From Marinilabilia sp. (lineage in GTDB: Bacteria; Bacteroidota; Bacteroidia; Bacteroidales; Marinilabiliaceae): a stretch of DNA of 64,000 nucleotides. Below, piece by piece: positions 33,864-59,074 of the stretch. Where the stretch lies: positions 1 through 64,000 of the forward strand of contig NZ_JADQBH010000049.1 in NCBI RefSeq assembly GCF_016278715.1. Direction: 5' to 3'. Numbering within the stretch: the first letter of the stretch is position 1; each line of letters opens with the position of its first letter. A model generated the notes under the pieces. The model saw nothing but the letters and a program-made list of their open reading frames with translations. It was not told the DNA's origin and ran no database searches. The position numbers were made by a program, and so were the translations under genes.

Positions 33864-34007
33864 ACAAACCATCTTAGCTCAAAGTTGTGGACTGGCGATA
33901 AAAAATTAAGTGTAGGATTAAAAAAGAAAAAATATTTCAGAACAATATCGACAAATGAATTGTATGATTTATTCATTGAGAAGGAATTACGAAAGAAAAG
34001 AACCTAA
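33864..34007 (+). pseudogene. C-terminal remnant of a PIN-domain toxin (copy of 37680-38141)
   Basis: The frame reads TNHLSSKLWTGDKKLSVGLKKKKYFRT then ISTNELYDLFIEKELRKKRT, nearly identical to the last third of the complete PIN toxin at 38 kb (TNHLGSKLWTGDKKLGVG...). Identity continues at the DNA level through the 3' flank into repeat R1, as the intact copy continues into R3. The antitoxin and the N-terminal two thirds of the toxin are absent. The short string AACGACGCCA is found at both the deletion edge here (33853) and upstream of the intact antitoxin (37424), marking where the deletion joined. Confidence 0.88.
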
Positions 34008-34078
34008 TTTCATACGATAATACTATCAGATCCTTAGGACAAATAGAATAAAAAAACACACATGCCGAAGAATAAAAC

Positions 34079-34226
34079 GGTGAGCAACAAAGCTGTGATA
34101 CGCCAGCCATGCCATCCACTGCATATTGAGGGCTTCGTTTTACCTTCTCACATGCGTTCAAACTGATAAAATCAAAGCTGGTCTGAGTGCCCCAGGCAAG
34201 GTGAATGTAGCCAGGTCGTTTGGAAC
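34079..34226 (+). repeat. attC-like repeat R1
   Basis: Member of the R family: GGTGAGCAAC at the left, conserved body (GCTGTGATACGCCAGCC, GCATATTGAGGGCTTCG, CTCACATGCGTTCAAACTGA, AAAGCTGGTCTGA, AATGTAGCC) and right core CGTTTGGAAC. The left end GTGAGCAAC resembles that of R3, as expected if it closed a second PIN cassette. Confidence 0.75.
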
Positions 34227-34252
34227 AATTTAACAAAACGCATACACAGATA

Positions 34253-35883: not shown

Positions 35884-36020
35884 ACTACTGCTGGCAGTCG
35901 GTCGGAAAATATTGGGGGTTAGATGTTTGGCTATGCGTATCACTCGCTGATAATGGTCGTTCGGTTGATAGGTTCGTATCTCAGCAACCCCAAAATTTCA
36001 TTTTGTCAAACGTTGAACGC
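35877..36020 (+). repeat. attC-like repeat of a second family
   Basis: A different sequence from the R family but with the same plan: left end GATTTAAAC containing the hydrolase stop, an imperfect inverted pair (AAAATATTGGGGGTT near 35911 and AACCCCAAAATTT near 35988), and a right end CAAACGTTGAACGC whose GTTGAAC fits the integron core GTTRRRY. The left end can pair with the start of its own block (GTTTGGAAC) at eight of nine positions when G-T is allowed. Confidence 0.65.
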
Positions 36021-36378
36021 AAGCCAGACAACCATCCTGCAAAAGCTAATTTGTATAAATTGCTTTTATGAGGATGATGAATTGATTGGTTATGGAGTTA
36101 AGTTCAAAAAGAATGGGGTATACGCGAATGTTCATTTGATTAAGCTCAATACAAGTACAGGCCAATTTAGTGCTGGATTTGCTAACGGAGGATTCCTGAC
36201 TAATAAAGTAGAAGTATATGCAGAGAATAAATGGATTGATAAAAAAATGTTGATTTTCGAAGCAAAAGATGAGCTAGAAATGCTTGAGGATAAATATATT
36301 TTGAAAGGGGAAGAAAAATTAATGTCAGCTAAAAATGAGGTAATTGAAGCAGCTGAATTCATAATACATTTAGAATAA
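35923..36378 (+). CDS. Hypothetical protein, probably 5'-fused to repeat sequence
   Basis: The ORF begins inside the preceding repeat; only the part after about 36030 (ILQKLICINCFYEDDELIGYGVKFKKNGVYANVHLIKL ... AAEFIIHLE) looks like genuine protein, roughly 110 residues with no signal peptide, no membrane helix and an acidic C terminus. There is no good in-frame ATG at the start of that part, so the gene may be truncated or use an unusual start. No family is recognised. The block is closed by R2, whose left end complements the block's start at eight of nine bases. Confidence 0.4.
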   Translation: MFGYAYHSLIMVVRLIGSYLSNPKISFCQTLNASQTTILQKLICINCFYEDDELIGYGVKFKKNGVYANVHLIKLNTSTGQFSAGFANGGFLTNKVEVYAENKWIDKKMLIFEAKDELEMLEDKYILKGEEKLMSAKNEVIEAAEFIIHLE

Positions 36379-36403
36379 ATTTATTTTTGAAAAGATAAAG
36401 CCA

Positions 36404-36548
36404 GCGTTTAACTATGCTATCATTCTCCAGCCGCGGCATTCACAGCGTATTGAGGACTTCGTTTTACTTCTCACATGTTTTTGGGCTGATAAATTCACGG
36501 CTGGACCTAAGGCCACGCCCAGAACCGTATTGCCGGGAAGTTGGGACA
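36404..36548 (+). repeat. attC-like repeat R2
   Basis: R-family element: left end GCGTTTAAC, body matches to CCAGCCGCGGCATTCACAGC, GTATTGAGGACTTCGTTTTA, CTCACATG, GGGCTGATAAATTCACGGCTGG, and right core GTTGGGACA. The left end is the complement, with one C-T difference, of GTTGAACGC at the start of the same block. Confidence 0.75.
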
Positions 36549-36591
36549 AACCCGGAAAATGACCGTACAATGAATTGTTGTACTTACCGGG

Positions 36592-37680: not shown

Positions 37681-38141
37681 TGAAAATAGTCGTTGACTCA
37701 AATATTGTTTTTAGTGCCATCCTAAATTCACAGGGGAAAATTGCACAATTAATCATAAACGGTTCAAAATATTTTTCCTTTTTCAGCGTAAGTCTGCTTA
37801 AAGAAGAAATTCTTAATCATAAAGATAAACTACTATCTATTTCGGGATTAACCGAAACTCAGTTTGAATCTTCCTTTTCTCATATTGCTTCAAGAATAAA
37901 ATTCGTTGATGAAATCTTGATTTCCGACCAAGATTTGGAAAAAGCCACGAGATTAACTAAAGATATCGATGAAAATGATATTTTGTTTGTCGCTCTGACA
38001 AACCATCTTGGCTCAAAATTGTGGACTGGCGATAAAAAATTAGGTGTAGGATTAAAAAAGAAAAAATATTTCAGAACAATATCGACTAATGAATTATATG
38101 ATTTATTCATTGAGAAGGAATTACGAAAGAAAAAAACCTAA
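37680..38141 (+). CDS. PIN-domain ribonuclease toxin (VapC-like)
   Basis: A 153-residue PIN domain. Acidic active-site residues are visible at the start (VVDSNIVFSAIL), in the middle (DIDENDILFVALTNHLG) and near the end (LWTGDKKLGVGLKKKKYF). PIN toxins cleave RNA, often tRNA, when the antitoxin is lost. The start codon overlaps the antitoxin stop by one base. The same 3' half plus flank is duplicated at 33.86-34.08 kb as a remnant. The pair lies in a block bounded by complementary ends (37270 and 38220), so it looks like one mobile cassette; toxin-antitoxin pairs are known to stabilise cassette arrays. Confidence 0.88.
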   Translation: MKIVVDSNIVFSAILNSQGKIAQLIINGSKYFSFFSVSLLKEEILNHKDKLLSISGLTETQFESSFSHIASRIKFVDEILISDQDLEKATRLTKDIDENDILFVALTNHLGSKLWTGDKKLGVGLKKKKYFRTISTNELYDLFIEKELRKKKT

Positions 38142-38210
38142 TTTCATACTATAATACTATCAGATTATTAAGACTAATAGAATTAAAAAACACATACCGA
38201 GGAATAAAAC

Positions 38211-38350
38211 GGTGGGCAACAAAGCTATATACACCAGCCGGGGTATCCACAGTATATTGAACGTTTCGAATTACTTTTTCACAGGCGTTCATTCTATTAA
38301 TTTCACAGAGGGTCTGAATGCCACCTCCGGGGCATTTTGCCGAGCGTAGT
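38211..38350 (+). repeat. attC-like repeat R3 (right end disrupted)
   Basis: Left end GGTGGGCAAC, then R-family body (GCTATATACACCAGCC, GTATCCACAGTATATTGAACG, CACAGGCGTTCA, TCACAGAGGGTCTGAATGCC, GAGCGTAGTAGG). A GTT-containing right core is not found before the polysaccharide locus, so this end appears broken, probably where foreign DNA joined. 38351-38600 otherwise shows only the presumed promoter region of the HTCS gene. Confidence 0.65.
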
Positions 38351-38600
38351 AGGCTGAGAGAAACCGCAGGACTCAAAAAGAGTGCGGAACGGATTCCCAA
38401 GCCGAATTCTCTTTTGGGAAAATATTTATGACACTATCTGATAATCGAAGAAACATTTTATCTACTACTACATCCCGTAAGCCATGGTCTCCATAATTAG
38501 TCAAATTAAAGGGTTTTTGCTATTTTTAGCTCACGAAACCAAAAACTTTTCGGAGTCCCTTTGAACGGCCTGAAAAAGCTTCCACCACTGAAAAACAGAC

Positions 38601-50007: not shown

Positions 50008-50039
50008 GCCTGATGTTCAGGAATGAAACCGTTAACCTT

Positions 50040-50290
50040 TTTGGAAAAAGGGAACAAAAAGTTAATTTTACGGGAAGCAAAATCATTTTAAAACAAGAAA
50101 TAAATTGATTGCCCAGCCCCACATATTGTTTAAAGGAAATTTGAACTTCCCCGCATCAGCAGGAGGGGGAGTGATTGATAAGGTTTAGAAAGGTGTACAA
50201 TGCATTCGGAATTTGGATGTTTTGTGCACCTTTTGTTTTTATAAGGGGAGTATAGGGGCACTTTGGTGGGGTTATAGAAGTGTTGTGCGG
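50040..50290 (+). repeat. Repeat C, copy 1 (recombination-site-like, precedes the DUF6713/GrpB block)
   Basis: Aligns with 56765-57025 over about 250 bp. Both share TTTGGAAAAAG, AAAAAGTTA, TTGATTGCCCA-CCCCA, GGGGAGTGATTGAT, AAAGGTGTACAATGCATTCGG, TTTTGTGC-CCTTTTG and TATAGAAGTGTTG. The AAAGGTGTACAA / TTTTGTGCACCTTT pair forms a long hairpin, and a wobble change in the other copy keeps it paired. The right end GTTGTGCGG is exactly complementary to CCGCACAAC at the left of R4. The front half shares sequence with repeat B. Confidence 0.7.
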
Positions 50291-50331
50291 CATGCAAGGA
50301 AACGTAGTACAAACCTTAAACTAACTGAAAA

Positions 50332-50712
50332 ATGGATTTGAGTTTATTATTTTGGATTTACCTGATAAATTCCGTGATTCTTATAAATCATGAGATTGAT
50401 TCAGCTTATTGGCAGGAATGGAAATTAGTTAATCCCAATGACACAAGTGACGTAAAAGGATTCTTAATAATTCATTTTCCGATGTTATTTGCAATTCTTT
50501 TCGGCTTAATACTCATAGATAGGGGATTAATAGCTGGATATGTTATTTCTTTAATTGTTGCAGCTGGTGGGATTTTTGCATTTTTCTTTCATTTTTACCA
50601 TTTAAGAAAAGGACGAAAAGAATTTAATAACTGGCTTTCCAAACTGATATTAATTTTAACATTTCCGATTTCGATTTTTCAAATTGCATTGACAATCATG
50701 GATTTGATTTAG
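50332..50712 (+). CDS. Small four-helix membrane protein (DUF6713-like)
   Basis: A 126-residue integral membrane protein with about four hydrophobic helices and the opening WIYLINSVILINHEIDSAYWQEWKL. The HEIDSAYWxEW string is the mark of a small family I associate with DUF6713; its function is unknown. It begins 41 bp after the right end of repeat C and is followed by the GrpB gene after one base, so the two are translated together in one cassette-like block. Confidence 0.65.
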   Translation: MDLSLLFWIYLINSVILINHEIDSAYWQEWKLVNPNDTSDVKGFLIIHFPMLFAILFGLILIDRGLIAGYVISLIVAAGGIFAFFFHFYHLRKGRKEFNNWLSKLILILTFPISIFQIALTIMDLI

Positions 50713-50713
50713 T

Positions 50714-51277
50714 ATGACTGCACCAAAAGATCTACATAAAATGACAATCAACGAATTAGGTCAATTATTTCCGATTATAATAAAAGACTATTCGGATAGG
50801 TGGTCGGATTTATATAAAGAAGAGGCCAAATTGATTACTGATTCATTCTCGCAAACTGATATTGTGAAAATTGACCATATTGGTAGTACTGCAATCCCAA
50901 GAATTAAATCAAAACCAACGATTGATATCTTATTGCAAGTTACAGAGCAGATTGATATTCAAAGATTAAAGGCTACATTTAAATTACTCGGATACCAAAT
51001 CAATGCACATCCAGAAAATCCCCCACCACATTTGACATTTGTGAAAGGTTATACAAAGCATGGATTTAAAGGACAAGCATATCATGTTCATATCAGATAC
51101 CGTGGAGACTGGGATGAAATTAGGTTCAGGGATTACCTGATTAAAAATAAAGAGATTGCAAAAGAATACGAATTATTAAAATTGGAGCTTGCTGAGAAAT
51201 ATCCAAACGATAGAGAAGCATATACTGATTTAAAAACCGAATGGATTGAAAAAATTAATAACTTGACACGAAAATAA
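50714..51277 (+). CDS. GrpB/UPF0157 family protein (nucleotidyltransferase fold)
   Basis: A 187-residue GrpB-like protein. The nucleotidyltransferase-like core reads IDHIGSTAIPRIKSKPTIDILLQV, with G-S and the D-x-L acidic positions of the fold, followed by PPPHLTFVKGY, KAYHVHIRY-type strand (QAYHVHIRYRGDWDEIRFRDYL) and a C-terminal helix (YPNDREAYTDLKTEWIEKI). The family's biochemical role is unclear. It ends 7 bp before the left end of R4 and shares a block with the DUF6713-like gene. Confidence 0.85.
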   Translation: MTAPKDLHKMTINELGQLFPIIIKDYSDRWSDLYKEEAKLITDSFSQTDIVKIDHIGSTAIPRIKSKPTIDILLQVTEQIDIQRLKATFKLLGYQINAHPENPPPHLTFVKGYTKHGFKGQAYHVHIRYRGDWDEIRFRDYLIKNKEIAKEYELLKLELAEKYPNDREAYTDLKTEWIEKINNLTRK

Positions 51278-51284
51278 TGCACGA

Positions 51285-51427
51285 CCGCACAACAATCTGT
51301 ATACGCCATCCGGGTCTCCACAGCATATTGCAAGCTTCTTTTTACCTTGCTACCCGCTCACGGTTTGACACAATCTTATGGGGTTTGAAAGCCCCGGCCT
51401 GACGCATACGGCCGAGACGTTGGGGAC
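51285..51427 (+). repeat. attC-like repeat R4
   Basis: R-family element with left end CCGCACAAC, exact complement of GTTGTGCGG at 50282 (start of the same block), and right core GTTGGGGAC that starts the next block. The arms are complementary with extra unpaired bases: CAAC-ATCT-GTATACG near the left against CGCATAC-GAGA-GTTG read backward from the right. This is the fold plan of attC sites. 51428-51566 holds nothing recognisable. Confidence 0.8.
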
Positions 51428-51566
51428 AAGCAAAAACACATGGTCTATATTGTCTTAAAAATTAGATGTTTAATTATAAAAAAAACTTAAATTAAAGACT
51501 TTAAAACCTGATTTTCAATTATGCTAAAAATAACCAAATAATTATCGAGCCCTAAATAAGGATAAT

Positions 51567-52040
51567 ATGATTCAATTCTTCCAAACGATTCCAAATAGGG
51601 TACTGTATTTTATTTTTTCTTTGGTCTTAATATTAATTATCATTAAGATAAAAACATTACTCAGAATAAACAGAGTGAGGAAAACTGCTATTCAATTGAT
51701 AAAAAATACATTAACCGGCATAAGTTTTAATGATTTACCAGAAAAAGAAAATGATGATATATACGTCAAATTTTTTGAGACAAAAGAACTGAAATATTTC
51801 AATATAATTCGTGACAATGGTGAGGATTTGGAATATAGACTTCGTGATTCAAAAGATTTAAAGGAAAACAATCCTAAAGTGAGAAATTTGATTACGAAGT
51901 TTAGAGAAAAAGGAAATAAAGATGGAAAAATCCTCAAAGAAACTGGTGGGTTCATCTTAATTCACAAAATAAACAATACCAGTTTTGCAGTTCTTATGTT
52001 CTCAAAACCTAATTATTCAGAGATAATTTTTAAAAAATGA
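51567..52040 (+). CDS. Membrane-anchored hypothetical protein
   Basis: A 157-residue protein with one N-terminal membrane helix (VLYFIFSLVLILIIIKI) and a basic soluble domain (NDIYVKFFETKELKYFNIIRDNGEDLEYRL, GGFILIHKINNTSFAVLMFSK). It is the only gene in the block between R4 and R5. No family is recognised. Strand and position as sole cargo of a perfectly bounded block are the main support for it being a real gene. Confidence 0.65.
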   Translation: MIQFFQTIPNRVLYFIFSLVLILIIIKIKTLLRINRVRKTAIQLIKNTLTGISFNDLPEKENDDIYVKFFETKELKYFNIIRDNGEDLEYRLRDSKDLKENNPKVRNLITKFREKGNKDGKILKETGGFILIHKINNTSFAVLMFSKPNYSEIIFKK

Positions 52041-52087
52041 TATCTTTAAATCAATTAATTTAAAACAAATAAAACAAGAAAATGCCA

Positions 52088-52232
52088 GTCCCCAACAAAA
52101 ATATATACGCCAGCCTTAGCATCTACCGCATATTGAGAGTCTCATTTTCCCCGCTCGTATGCGTTCACGCTGATTAAGTCACAGTTGGTCCGAAAGGGGC
52201 GGGAGGTGGATGTAGCCTAAACGTTCGAACAC
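52088..52232 (+). repeat. attC-like repeat R5
   Basis: R-family element with left end GTCCCCAAC, exact complement of GTTGGGGAC at 51419 (start of the same block). Body: ATATATACGCCAGCC, GCATATTGAGAGTCTCA, TATGCGTTCACGCTGAT, AGTCACAGTTGGTC, GATGTAGCC; right core ACGTTCGAACAC. Confidence 0.8.
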
Positions 52233-56764: not shown

Positions 56765-57025
56765 GTAATCTTTTTTGGAAAAAGAAAACAAAAAAGTTAG
56801 TTTTACAGCAACCAATAACACTCTAAAACCAAAAACAAATTGATTGCCCAACCCCATATACTGTTTAAAGAAAATTTGAACTTTCTCGTCCCAACGGGAT
56901 GGGGAGTGATTGATCAGACATAGAAAGGTGTACAATGCATTCGGGATTTGAATGTTTTGTGCGCCTTTTGTTTTGATAAGGGGAATATAAGCGCACCTTG
57001 GTGGGGGTATAGAAGTGTTGGGGCC
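56765..57025 (+). repeat. Repeat C, copy 2
   Basis: Second copy of repeat C (see 50040), closing the DUF3788/AlkD block. It keeps the AAAGGTGTACAA / TTTTGTGCGCCTTT hairpin with a T-G wobble in place of T-A, and ends TATAGAAGTGTTGGGGCC. 56666-56764 before it and 57026-57171 after it hold nothing recognisable. Confidence 0.7.
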
Positions 57026-57699: not shown

Positions 57700-57712
57700 A
57701 TTAAAACGTCTT

Positions 57713-57847
57713 ACAATAAAGCTATGATACGCCAGCTGTGTCACAGAAAATTGAGGGTTTAGTTTTACCCTCTCCCATGCGTTCAAACTGATAAAATCAG
57801 TGCTGGCGGGAAAAGCGCTTGGGGGGGTAGCGGGGACCTTTCAACAC
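57713..57847 (+). repeat. attC-like repeat R7
   Basis: R-family body is very close to R1 (AGCTATGATACGCCAGC, ATTGAGGGTTTAGTTTTACC, CCATGCGTTCAAACTGATAA, AATCAGTGCTGGC), but the right end reads CCTTTCAACAC instead of a GTT core, and the left end does not complement the start of its block. Confidence 0.65.
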
Positions 57848-57864
57848 ATTAATTAAAACAAGAA

Positions 57865-58642: not shown

Positions 58643-58927
58643 ATGAAAAAAACTAGCTTAATAAACTTTTGTGGCAATTTTGGAACTGTATTATTGATCA
58701 TTGCAGCAATTTTTATGATTCAGCACTATCCTTTTCACAATGAATTAATGACAATTGGACTTCTATCATTTGCAGTTTTCTGGATTTGGATACTAATTAA
58801 AATATTTAGAGCCCACCAACCATTAAACTATAAAACTGGCTGGACTATTTTTGTTTTGTTTATTCCAATAGTCGGATCCTGGGTTTATTATCATTTGGAA
58901 TTAAAAAAATTAAACAATTTGCAATAA
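58643..58927 (+). CDS. Small membrane protein with PLDc_N-like C terminus
   Basis: A 94-residue protein with three membrane segments; the last (KTGWTIFVLFIPIVGSWVYYHL) has the W-x-x-F/V-x-x-P-x-x-G-x-x-x-Y pattern of the phospholipase-D-nuclease N-terminal helix pair. Such free-standing domains are common small membrane proteins of unknown role. Its stop codon lies within the left end of R8, as with other tightly packed cargo. Confidence 0.6.
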   Translation: MKKTSLINFCGNFGTVLLIIAAIFMIQHYPFHNELMTIGLLSFAVFWIWILIKIFRAHQPLNYKTGWTIFVLFIPIVGSWVYYHLELKKLNNLQ

Positions 58928-59074
58928 GGCTGTGATACACCGACCGCATCATCCACTCCATAATGCGGGTTTTGTTTTAGCCTCTCACATGCTTTCTGGA
59001 TCATAAAGTCACAGATGTTCAGAAAGCCATCGCCAGGTGCAAATTGCAGGGGAGCTAAATGCATTGTTCGAATT
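58921..59074 (+). repeat. attC-like repeat R8
   Basis: R-family element: CAATAAGGCTGTGATACACC, CATCATCCACTCCATAATGC, CCTCTCACATGC, TCATAAAGTCACAG; right core TTGTTCGAATT. The left end does not complement the block start. Confidence 0.65.

Follow-up and report, generated by a model that had tools for sequence, protein, structure and literature searches.

The locus examined here raises the question of why a block of genes that is opened by one repeat and closed by another should have exactly complementary ends. The block lies in a 64,000-nucleotide stretch of Marinilabilia sp. DNA, referred to as the window, and carries a DUF6713 and a GrpB-family gene between a repeat termed C and a repeat termed R4. 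As the initial annotation had claimed, the letters at 50282-50290 (GTTGTGCGG) and at 51285-51293 (CCGCACAAC) form an exact 9-base complement when read in the window. As GTT and AAC belong to the site consensus, six bases are free per pair, which corresponds to a chance of about 1/4096. In the next block the match was likewise exact (9/9), although in a different sequence (GTTGGGGAC at 51419 paired with GTCCCCAAC at 52088), and a probable third block at 36012-36412 (GTTGAACGC ... GCGTTTAAC) reads as 8/9 plus a G-T pair. An unrestricted search of the region for GTT-nine-mers yielded 21 pairs compared with 11 in shuffles; since chance pairs turn up in such a bare search, evidential weight was given only to pairs at repeat ends.

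All block starts were compared with all repeat left ends using 34 different consecutive blocks of less than 2.5 kb from the window and related genomes, with only the six free bases being scored. A 6/6 match was found within the own block in 24/34 cases, in contrast to 1.6% of the other-block start/end pairs, and the maximum reached in 20,000 permutations was 6 perfect matches (p about 5e-5, which is the lowest value this test can give). Own-block pairs being no better than other-block pairs, which the initial annotation had named as the outcome that would speak against it, was thus not what was observed. Within a single site, the left and right ends matched at 2.4/6 positions, which is no better than the 2.5/6 of other-block pairs. 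Chance or shared repeat ancestry as the source of the complement could draw on the consensus letters shared by repeats within a family and on the 1.6% of other-block pairs reaching 6/6, but the own-block excess and the permutation result make this explanation extremely improbable.

The same block was also looked for elsewhere. The GrpB block of G010, a genome of another genus, starts with GTTGTACGGCATGCA (window GTTGTGCGGCATGCA) and closes with GCACGACCGCACAAC, which is identical in the window, whereas the site body that follows belongs to another repeat family (AACATCATGTATAAAATATTGGGGG vs AACAATCTGTATACGCC in the window); its first gene, as called from the sequence, is acetyltransferase-like where the window has DUF6713. 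As this block keeps both signature ends despite a different repeat body, the signature is bound to the block, and the earlier claim that the complement goes with the block rather than with the repeat family agrees with both this case and the own/other-block test. The occurrence of identical cassette ends with different site bodies in two genera (G010:C2, locus L252, vs window 50282-51293) suggests that site bodies may be exchanged at the AAC border.

The own-end run, GTT included, was measured in 105 cassette blocks drawn from 80 named loci of Bacteroidota and came to 9 bases in 43 blocks, 10 in 61 and 11 in one; because these blocks were chosen for a run of at least 9, only the sharp stop at 9-10 is informative. 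In canonical cassettes, R'/R'' self-pairing is documented as 9-11 nt (PMC2727003), and the analogy to integron cassettes drawn at the outset is upheld by this length as well as by the block-bound complementarity. Block ORFs, taken as the longest frame per block in blocks from named loci, lay in array orientation at 86:3 (n = 89). Judged from the sequence, the matching ends are the mark of a mobile gene cassette, whose signature would travel with the block as integron cassettes require; the 9-base signature as a cassette property is already known. Complementary ends flanking blocks of 0.3-3 kb would also be expected if the blocks were small transposons and the nine bases their terminal inverted repeats, but the inverted repeat varies from block to block, one side always runs into a site of 120-135 bp, the blocks are chained head to tail and no common transposase is present, which renders this interpretation highly improbable. 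The features of the window are compiled in the table.

Table. Cassette-related features of the window, with the basis on which each was assigned
Feature	Position	Strand	Basis and remarks
Repeat C, element with terminal stand-alone attI-like site	50038..50281	+	copies scattered through the window's genus
Terminator-like hairpin inside C, AAAGGTGTACAA ... TTTTGTGCACCTTTTGTTTTT	50189..50240	+	read in sequence; conserved in copies
attI-like core, inverted repeat right before crossover point	50248..50281	+	relatives and similar integrase-adjacent sites
Putative gene cassette 1 (DUF6713 + GrpB), first bases to left end of own site	50282..51293	+	9/9 complementary ends; Pfam
Cassette 1 start, GTTGTGCGG, R'-like half	50282..50290	+	read in sequence
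Left end of closing site, CCGCACAAC, R''-like half	51285..51293	+	read in sequence
DUF6713 gene	50332..50712	+	PF20460, E 2.4e-32
GrpB-family gene	50714..51277	+	PF04229, E 1.6e-42
attC-like site R4	51285..51421	+	model R1, 129 bits; bottom strand -27.0, top -20.7 kcal/mol
Putative gene cassette 2, GTTGGGGAC ... GTCCCCAAC, one gene (51567-52040)	51419..52096	+	9/9 complementarity
attC-like site R5	52088..52225	+	model R1, 137 bits; the block that follows begins with GTTC, probably decayed
Probable third cassette, GTTGAACGC ... GCGTTTAAC	36012..36412	+	8/9 plus G-T
attC-like site	36395..36557	+	model R1
attC-like site, best R1 match	34071..34235	+	171 bits; no 6/6 own-block partner
attC-like site, decayed right end	38203..38363	+	model R1
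Second copy of C	56773..57016	+	block start GTTGGGGCC at 57017, partner gone
attC-like site, decayed ends	57700..57855	+	model R1
attC-like site, decayed ends	58908..59071	+	model R1

Model R1, built from an alignment of seven window repeats, detected more than 110 sites in 9/61 relatives, chiefly of the window's own genus. The closing sites are mostly 110-135 bp long with variable arms and contain complementary R''/R' and L''/L' boxes of the attC type, and R4 and its relatives resemble attC sites; several window sites are decayed and lack their partner. Two of the attC-like sites are preceded by copies of a 197-bp repeat (33864-34060 and 37998-38194, 94% identical) that takes in the end of a PIN-like gene and represents a cassette-end duplication with different upstream genes. 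An Rfam search of the array returned nothing but a tRNA.

Folding was analysed on 66 sites of 100-140 bp from 25 named loci, taken in integrase orientation. The L-box helix measured 10.4 bp within a site, 7.8 bp with another site of the locus and 6.9 bp with a site of another locus. The bottom strand was the more stable one in 63/66 sites compared with 218/330 segment-shuffled controls, and A.C, which on the top strand equals G.T on the bottom strand, made up 53% of arm mismatches vs 26% in two controls. Segment-shuffled sites slightly favoured the bottom strand and shuffled arms also contained more A.C than G.T, and the top/bottom asymmetry is partly due to base composition. The A.C to G.T ratio was dropped as evidence, because it is much the same in shuffled arms; what counts are the A.C share and the energies, which alone lie above the controls. 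R4 and R5 folded alone were no better than shuffles, the folding signal appearing only with the cassette's own start included and over many sites. In the same sample, unpaired arm bases numbered 28 on the left and 23 on the right, without one-sided bias, and all 66 sites ended in GTTR, as required by the search, with GTTRRRY in 4/66.

In the window's genus, repeat C occurs as dispersed copies of about 250 bp, of which 10/14 could be aligned through to GTT (usually GTTR) at the junction and diverge beyond it. It consists of a promoter-like pair, about 150 bp, a terminator, an inverted repeat and GTTR. In related copies the promoter-like pair is of the Bacteroidota type (TTTTTTGG, 20 bp, TAGTTTTAC), and the inverted repeat before the crossover, which the terminator precedes as well, reads ATATAACCGCAC-TTTGAG-GTGTGGTTATAGAATC (also written ATATAACCGCAC-TTTGAG-GTGTGGTTATA), then GTTR. 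An exact 6/6 closing partner was present within 4.5 kb, each time at a site, in five of eight C junctions, and one further junction had a 5/6 match with a G-T pair. Integrase-adjacent sites of two loci (L038 and L039) resemble the core of C, with TATAAACACAATGTC(A/G)CTATAGGGAC followed by GTT. C is best read as a stand-alone attI-like site and not as a cassette site. On this reading, the opening and closing repeats belong to different families, as remarked in the initial annotation, because C ends in an attI-like site while R4 is an attC-like site. The upstream half of C (50038-50190), with about 150 bp conserved between the promoter-like pair and the terminator, is possibly a small RNA gene or a remnant.

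A tyrosine recombinase of 691-696 aa heads the arrays in G001, G004 and G010, and in each of these the block that follows the gene is closed by the first site. Relatives of its C-terminal part at E<=1e-40 were present in 110/396 Bacteroidota genomes; 80 named recombinase loci were retrieved, and the 41 with more than 1.5 kb downstream were used for an array test. A self-complementary block was found within 450 bp of the integrase stop in 30/41 loci compared with 2/41 after shuffling, mostly starting 35-100 bp downstream of the stop codon at an attI-like site, and chains of at least two blocks numbered 18 vs 0; in 11/41 loci no self-complementary block was found near the gene. By its position, the recombinase would be tied to the arrays. 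The long form (675-697 aa in close relatives of the window's organism) occurs in Marinilabiliaceae and related genomes (Anaerophaga, Geofilum, Natronoflexus and Alkalitalea), and a shorter one of about 345-390 aa in Flavobacterium, Winogradskyella, Polaribacter, Pedobacter, Chitinophaga and others. In the window's own assembly (326 contigs, 94% complete) no member of this integrase family was found; since sites are present and the integrase is absent from an incomplete assembly, the window array may be static at present, or else depend on a gene that escaped assembly.

It could be argued that XerC/XerD act on these sites as in the pdif modules of Acinetobacter plasmids and that the large recombinase has no part in the process. 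Genes of the XerC/D type are frequent in these genomes, and several attI-like sites contain dif-like inverted repeats (8-11 bp arms, 3-8 bp spacer) located 5-6 nt before GTT; the closing sites, however, are long variable hairpins rather than 28-bp dif sites, and blocks begin beside the HARP-type gene in 30/41 loci, so that we consider this proposal very unlikely.

Further recombinase genes were also noted. On two Chryseobacterium plasmids (L240, L241) the integrase is plasmid-borne, and the recombinase platform may on this account be mobile; no clear block chain was found on these plasmids. On the Acinetobacter baylyi plasmid pJAT2044 (L245, 2642-4663), the 'xerD' beside tet(X3) is a truncated member of the family, and this tet(X3)-adjacent 'xerD' of Acinetobacter plasmids is 48% identical to the enzyme of the Flavobacterium type. 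Directly upstream of tet(X3) stand an attI-like inverted repeat and then GTTATGTGCC, and tet(X3) may therefore derive from a first-cassette position; a closing partner for tet(X3) was looked for and not found. A metagenome-assembled genome labelled Spirochaetes ADurb.Bin218 (L190), outside Bacteroidota by its label, holds a family integrase with a self-complementary block nearby, which may represent a binning error or a transfer. Single attC-like sites are accompanied, at a distance of 0.2-6 kb, by another recombinase family of 291-311 aa (G004:C18, G001:C25 and G003:C7; L042, L043 and L045), which in the tree branches close to IntI and to the HARP-type clade.

The catalytic residues are conserved throughout the array-associated family. 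Its KGxKDR to HxLRH spacing is 64-65 aa in nearly all members and 69 in one, compared with 107 in genuine IntI, indicating that the additional (I2) domain of IntI, which is used for recognising intI genes (PMC2426708), is absent. Likewise, IntI4 aligned to the recombinase in two pieces and XerA in one without an insert. TIGR02249 matched in all controls, and only a score above its cut-off of 265 bits was counted as IntI; the array-heading enzymes scored 207 and 186 bits, and no IntI above the cut-off was found in the window's genus or its own genome. The C-terminal 260-280 aa match NF040815, with P0001 above the cut-off (231 vs 220 bits) and P0003 just below, and the NCBI name for such proteins is 'site-specific tyrosine recombinase/integron integrase'. 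In a tree of 46 sequences, built without archaeal XerA, an IntI clade (100/100) excluded this family, which formed a clade of its own (92/91).

Structure prediction for the 675-aa form (mean pLDDT 82), in which domain placement is unsure because of a pTM of 0.40, shows two small beta-alpha modules, a recombinase-like part and then the active recombinase, and its best fold match was IntI (2a3v). The middle part appears to comprise an SAM-like region and a shortened catalytic region, with an AGLRR motif that reads like ANxRL, and would be a degenerate second recombinase. The N-terminal module matched the HARP domain of SMARCAL1 (4o66) with a Pfam E of 0.0066, a profile E of 0.22 and a fold probability of 0.72, all three matches being weak and below accepted cut-offs. 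HARP domains bind DNA forks, and a fork-binding, HARP-like module would suit a hairpin substrate.

These data also bear on the notion that the array is the remnant of an ordinary IntI integron (CALIN) whose canonical IntI has since been lost. The cassette layout, own-end pairing and bottom-strand folding are integron-like, and G025, a relative of another family, has a genuine IntI. Against this, IntI above the cut-off is missing from the genus, the arrays of sister genomes start at the other recombinase, GTTRRRY is found in only 4/66 site ends (GTTR) and model R1 detects no site in G025; a CALIN origin is hence unlikely, to a considerable degree.

We therefore regard it as very probable that Bacteroidota have an integron-like system and that block 50282-51293 is one of its gene cassettes. 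Each block opens with GTTR and about six further bases, whose complement stands at the left end of the closing attC-like site of 120-135 bp. When the cassette is circular or single-stranded, its first bases would complete its own site, the bottom strand of which would then fold into a hairpin, and the recombinase, equipped with SAM-like and catalytic domains and a HARP-like N-terminus but devoid of the IntI additional domain, would link this hairpin at GTT to an attI-like site in double-stranded form. Such a site would be offered in the window by C, away from any integrase gene, with the enzyme acting in trans. A more far-reaching proposition, which in our judgement could equally well turn out right or wrong, is that Bacteroidota harbour a second, separately evolved lineage of single-strand hairpin cassette recombination, whose integrase never gained I2 and reads folded sites otherwise (by the HARP-like module and G-T bottom-strand stability), with one clade fused to a degenerate second recombinase and with scattered stand-alone attI platforms served in trans.

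The whole looks like a previously undescribed, phylum-wide and integron-like gene-capture system with a recombinase other than IntI. A literature search confined to an open-access collection turned up no account of a system of this kind. IntegronFinder 2.0 reported essentially one complete integron in Bacteroidetes proper, that of Salinibacter ruber (PMC9024848); searches relying on IntI would miss this recombinase family. If the system is active, cassette gene capture would be common, and so far unseen, in a whole phylum of central importance in the gut, the soil and the sea. Furthermore, the origin of hairpin recombination before the I2 domain is a stated puzzle (PMC4792948), which becomes testable because hairpin-like sites here coexist with an enzyme devoid of I2.

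Several known systems invite comparison. Riemerella anatipestifer acquires aph(3')-IVb without homology and always with a 27 bp 5' UTR and a 140-bp attC-like 3' UTR; the 2026 report suspects attC-like sites and names no integrase (PMC13148043). As proposed here, the gene there travels together with a short stretch on its 5' side and an attC-like one of 140 bp on its 3' side and without flanking homology, which lends the proposal outside support, although that study named no enzyme and made no link to a phylum-wide system (PMC13148043); if active, the system described here would account for this homology-free uptake of a resistance gene. Unlike pdif modules (XerC/XerD), the blocks lack 28-bp dif-like boundaries, their closing sites being mostly 110-135 bp. 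The enzyme is like XerA (NF040815) in its C-terminal match, above the cut-off for P0001 and aligned without an insert, but differs in an N-terminal extension of about 80 to 400 aa and in sitting at cassette arrays rather than serving only chromosome maintenance; to the HARP domain of SMARCAL1 (4o66) the likeness is confined to weak N-terminal matches below accepted cut-offs. With integrons and CALINs the arrays share head-to-tail cassettes, a site body that normally moves with its gene, own-end pairing of 9-11 nt, an R/L box hairpin with the bottom strand favoured, an attI-like site adjoining the integrase and a crossover at GTT. They differ in an integrase with a HARP-like N-terminus and without the IntI additional domain, which reads in the array direction so that attI follows its stop codon, in a GTTR core rather than GTTRRRY / RYYYAAC, and in the presence of stand-alone attI-like copies. 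Moreover, I2 reads extrahelical bases of the R''-L'' arm in canonical attC (PMC2727003, PMC4792948), whereas no clear bias to one arm was seen among the unpaired bases here (28 vs 23). As far as can be told at the sequence level, the system would work like an integron, but it lies outside that class both by its IntI score and by GTTRRRY.
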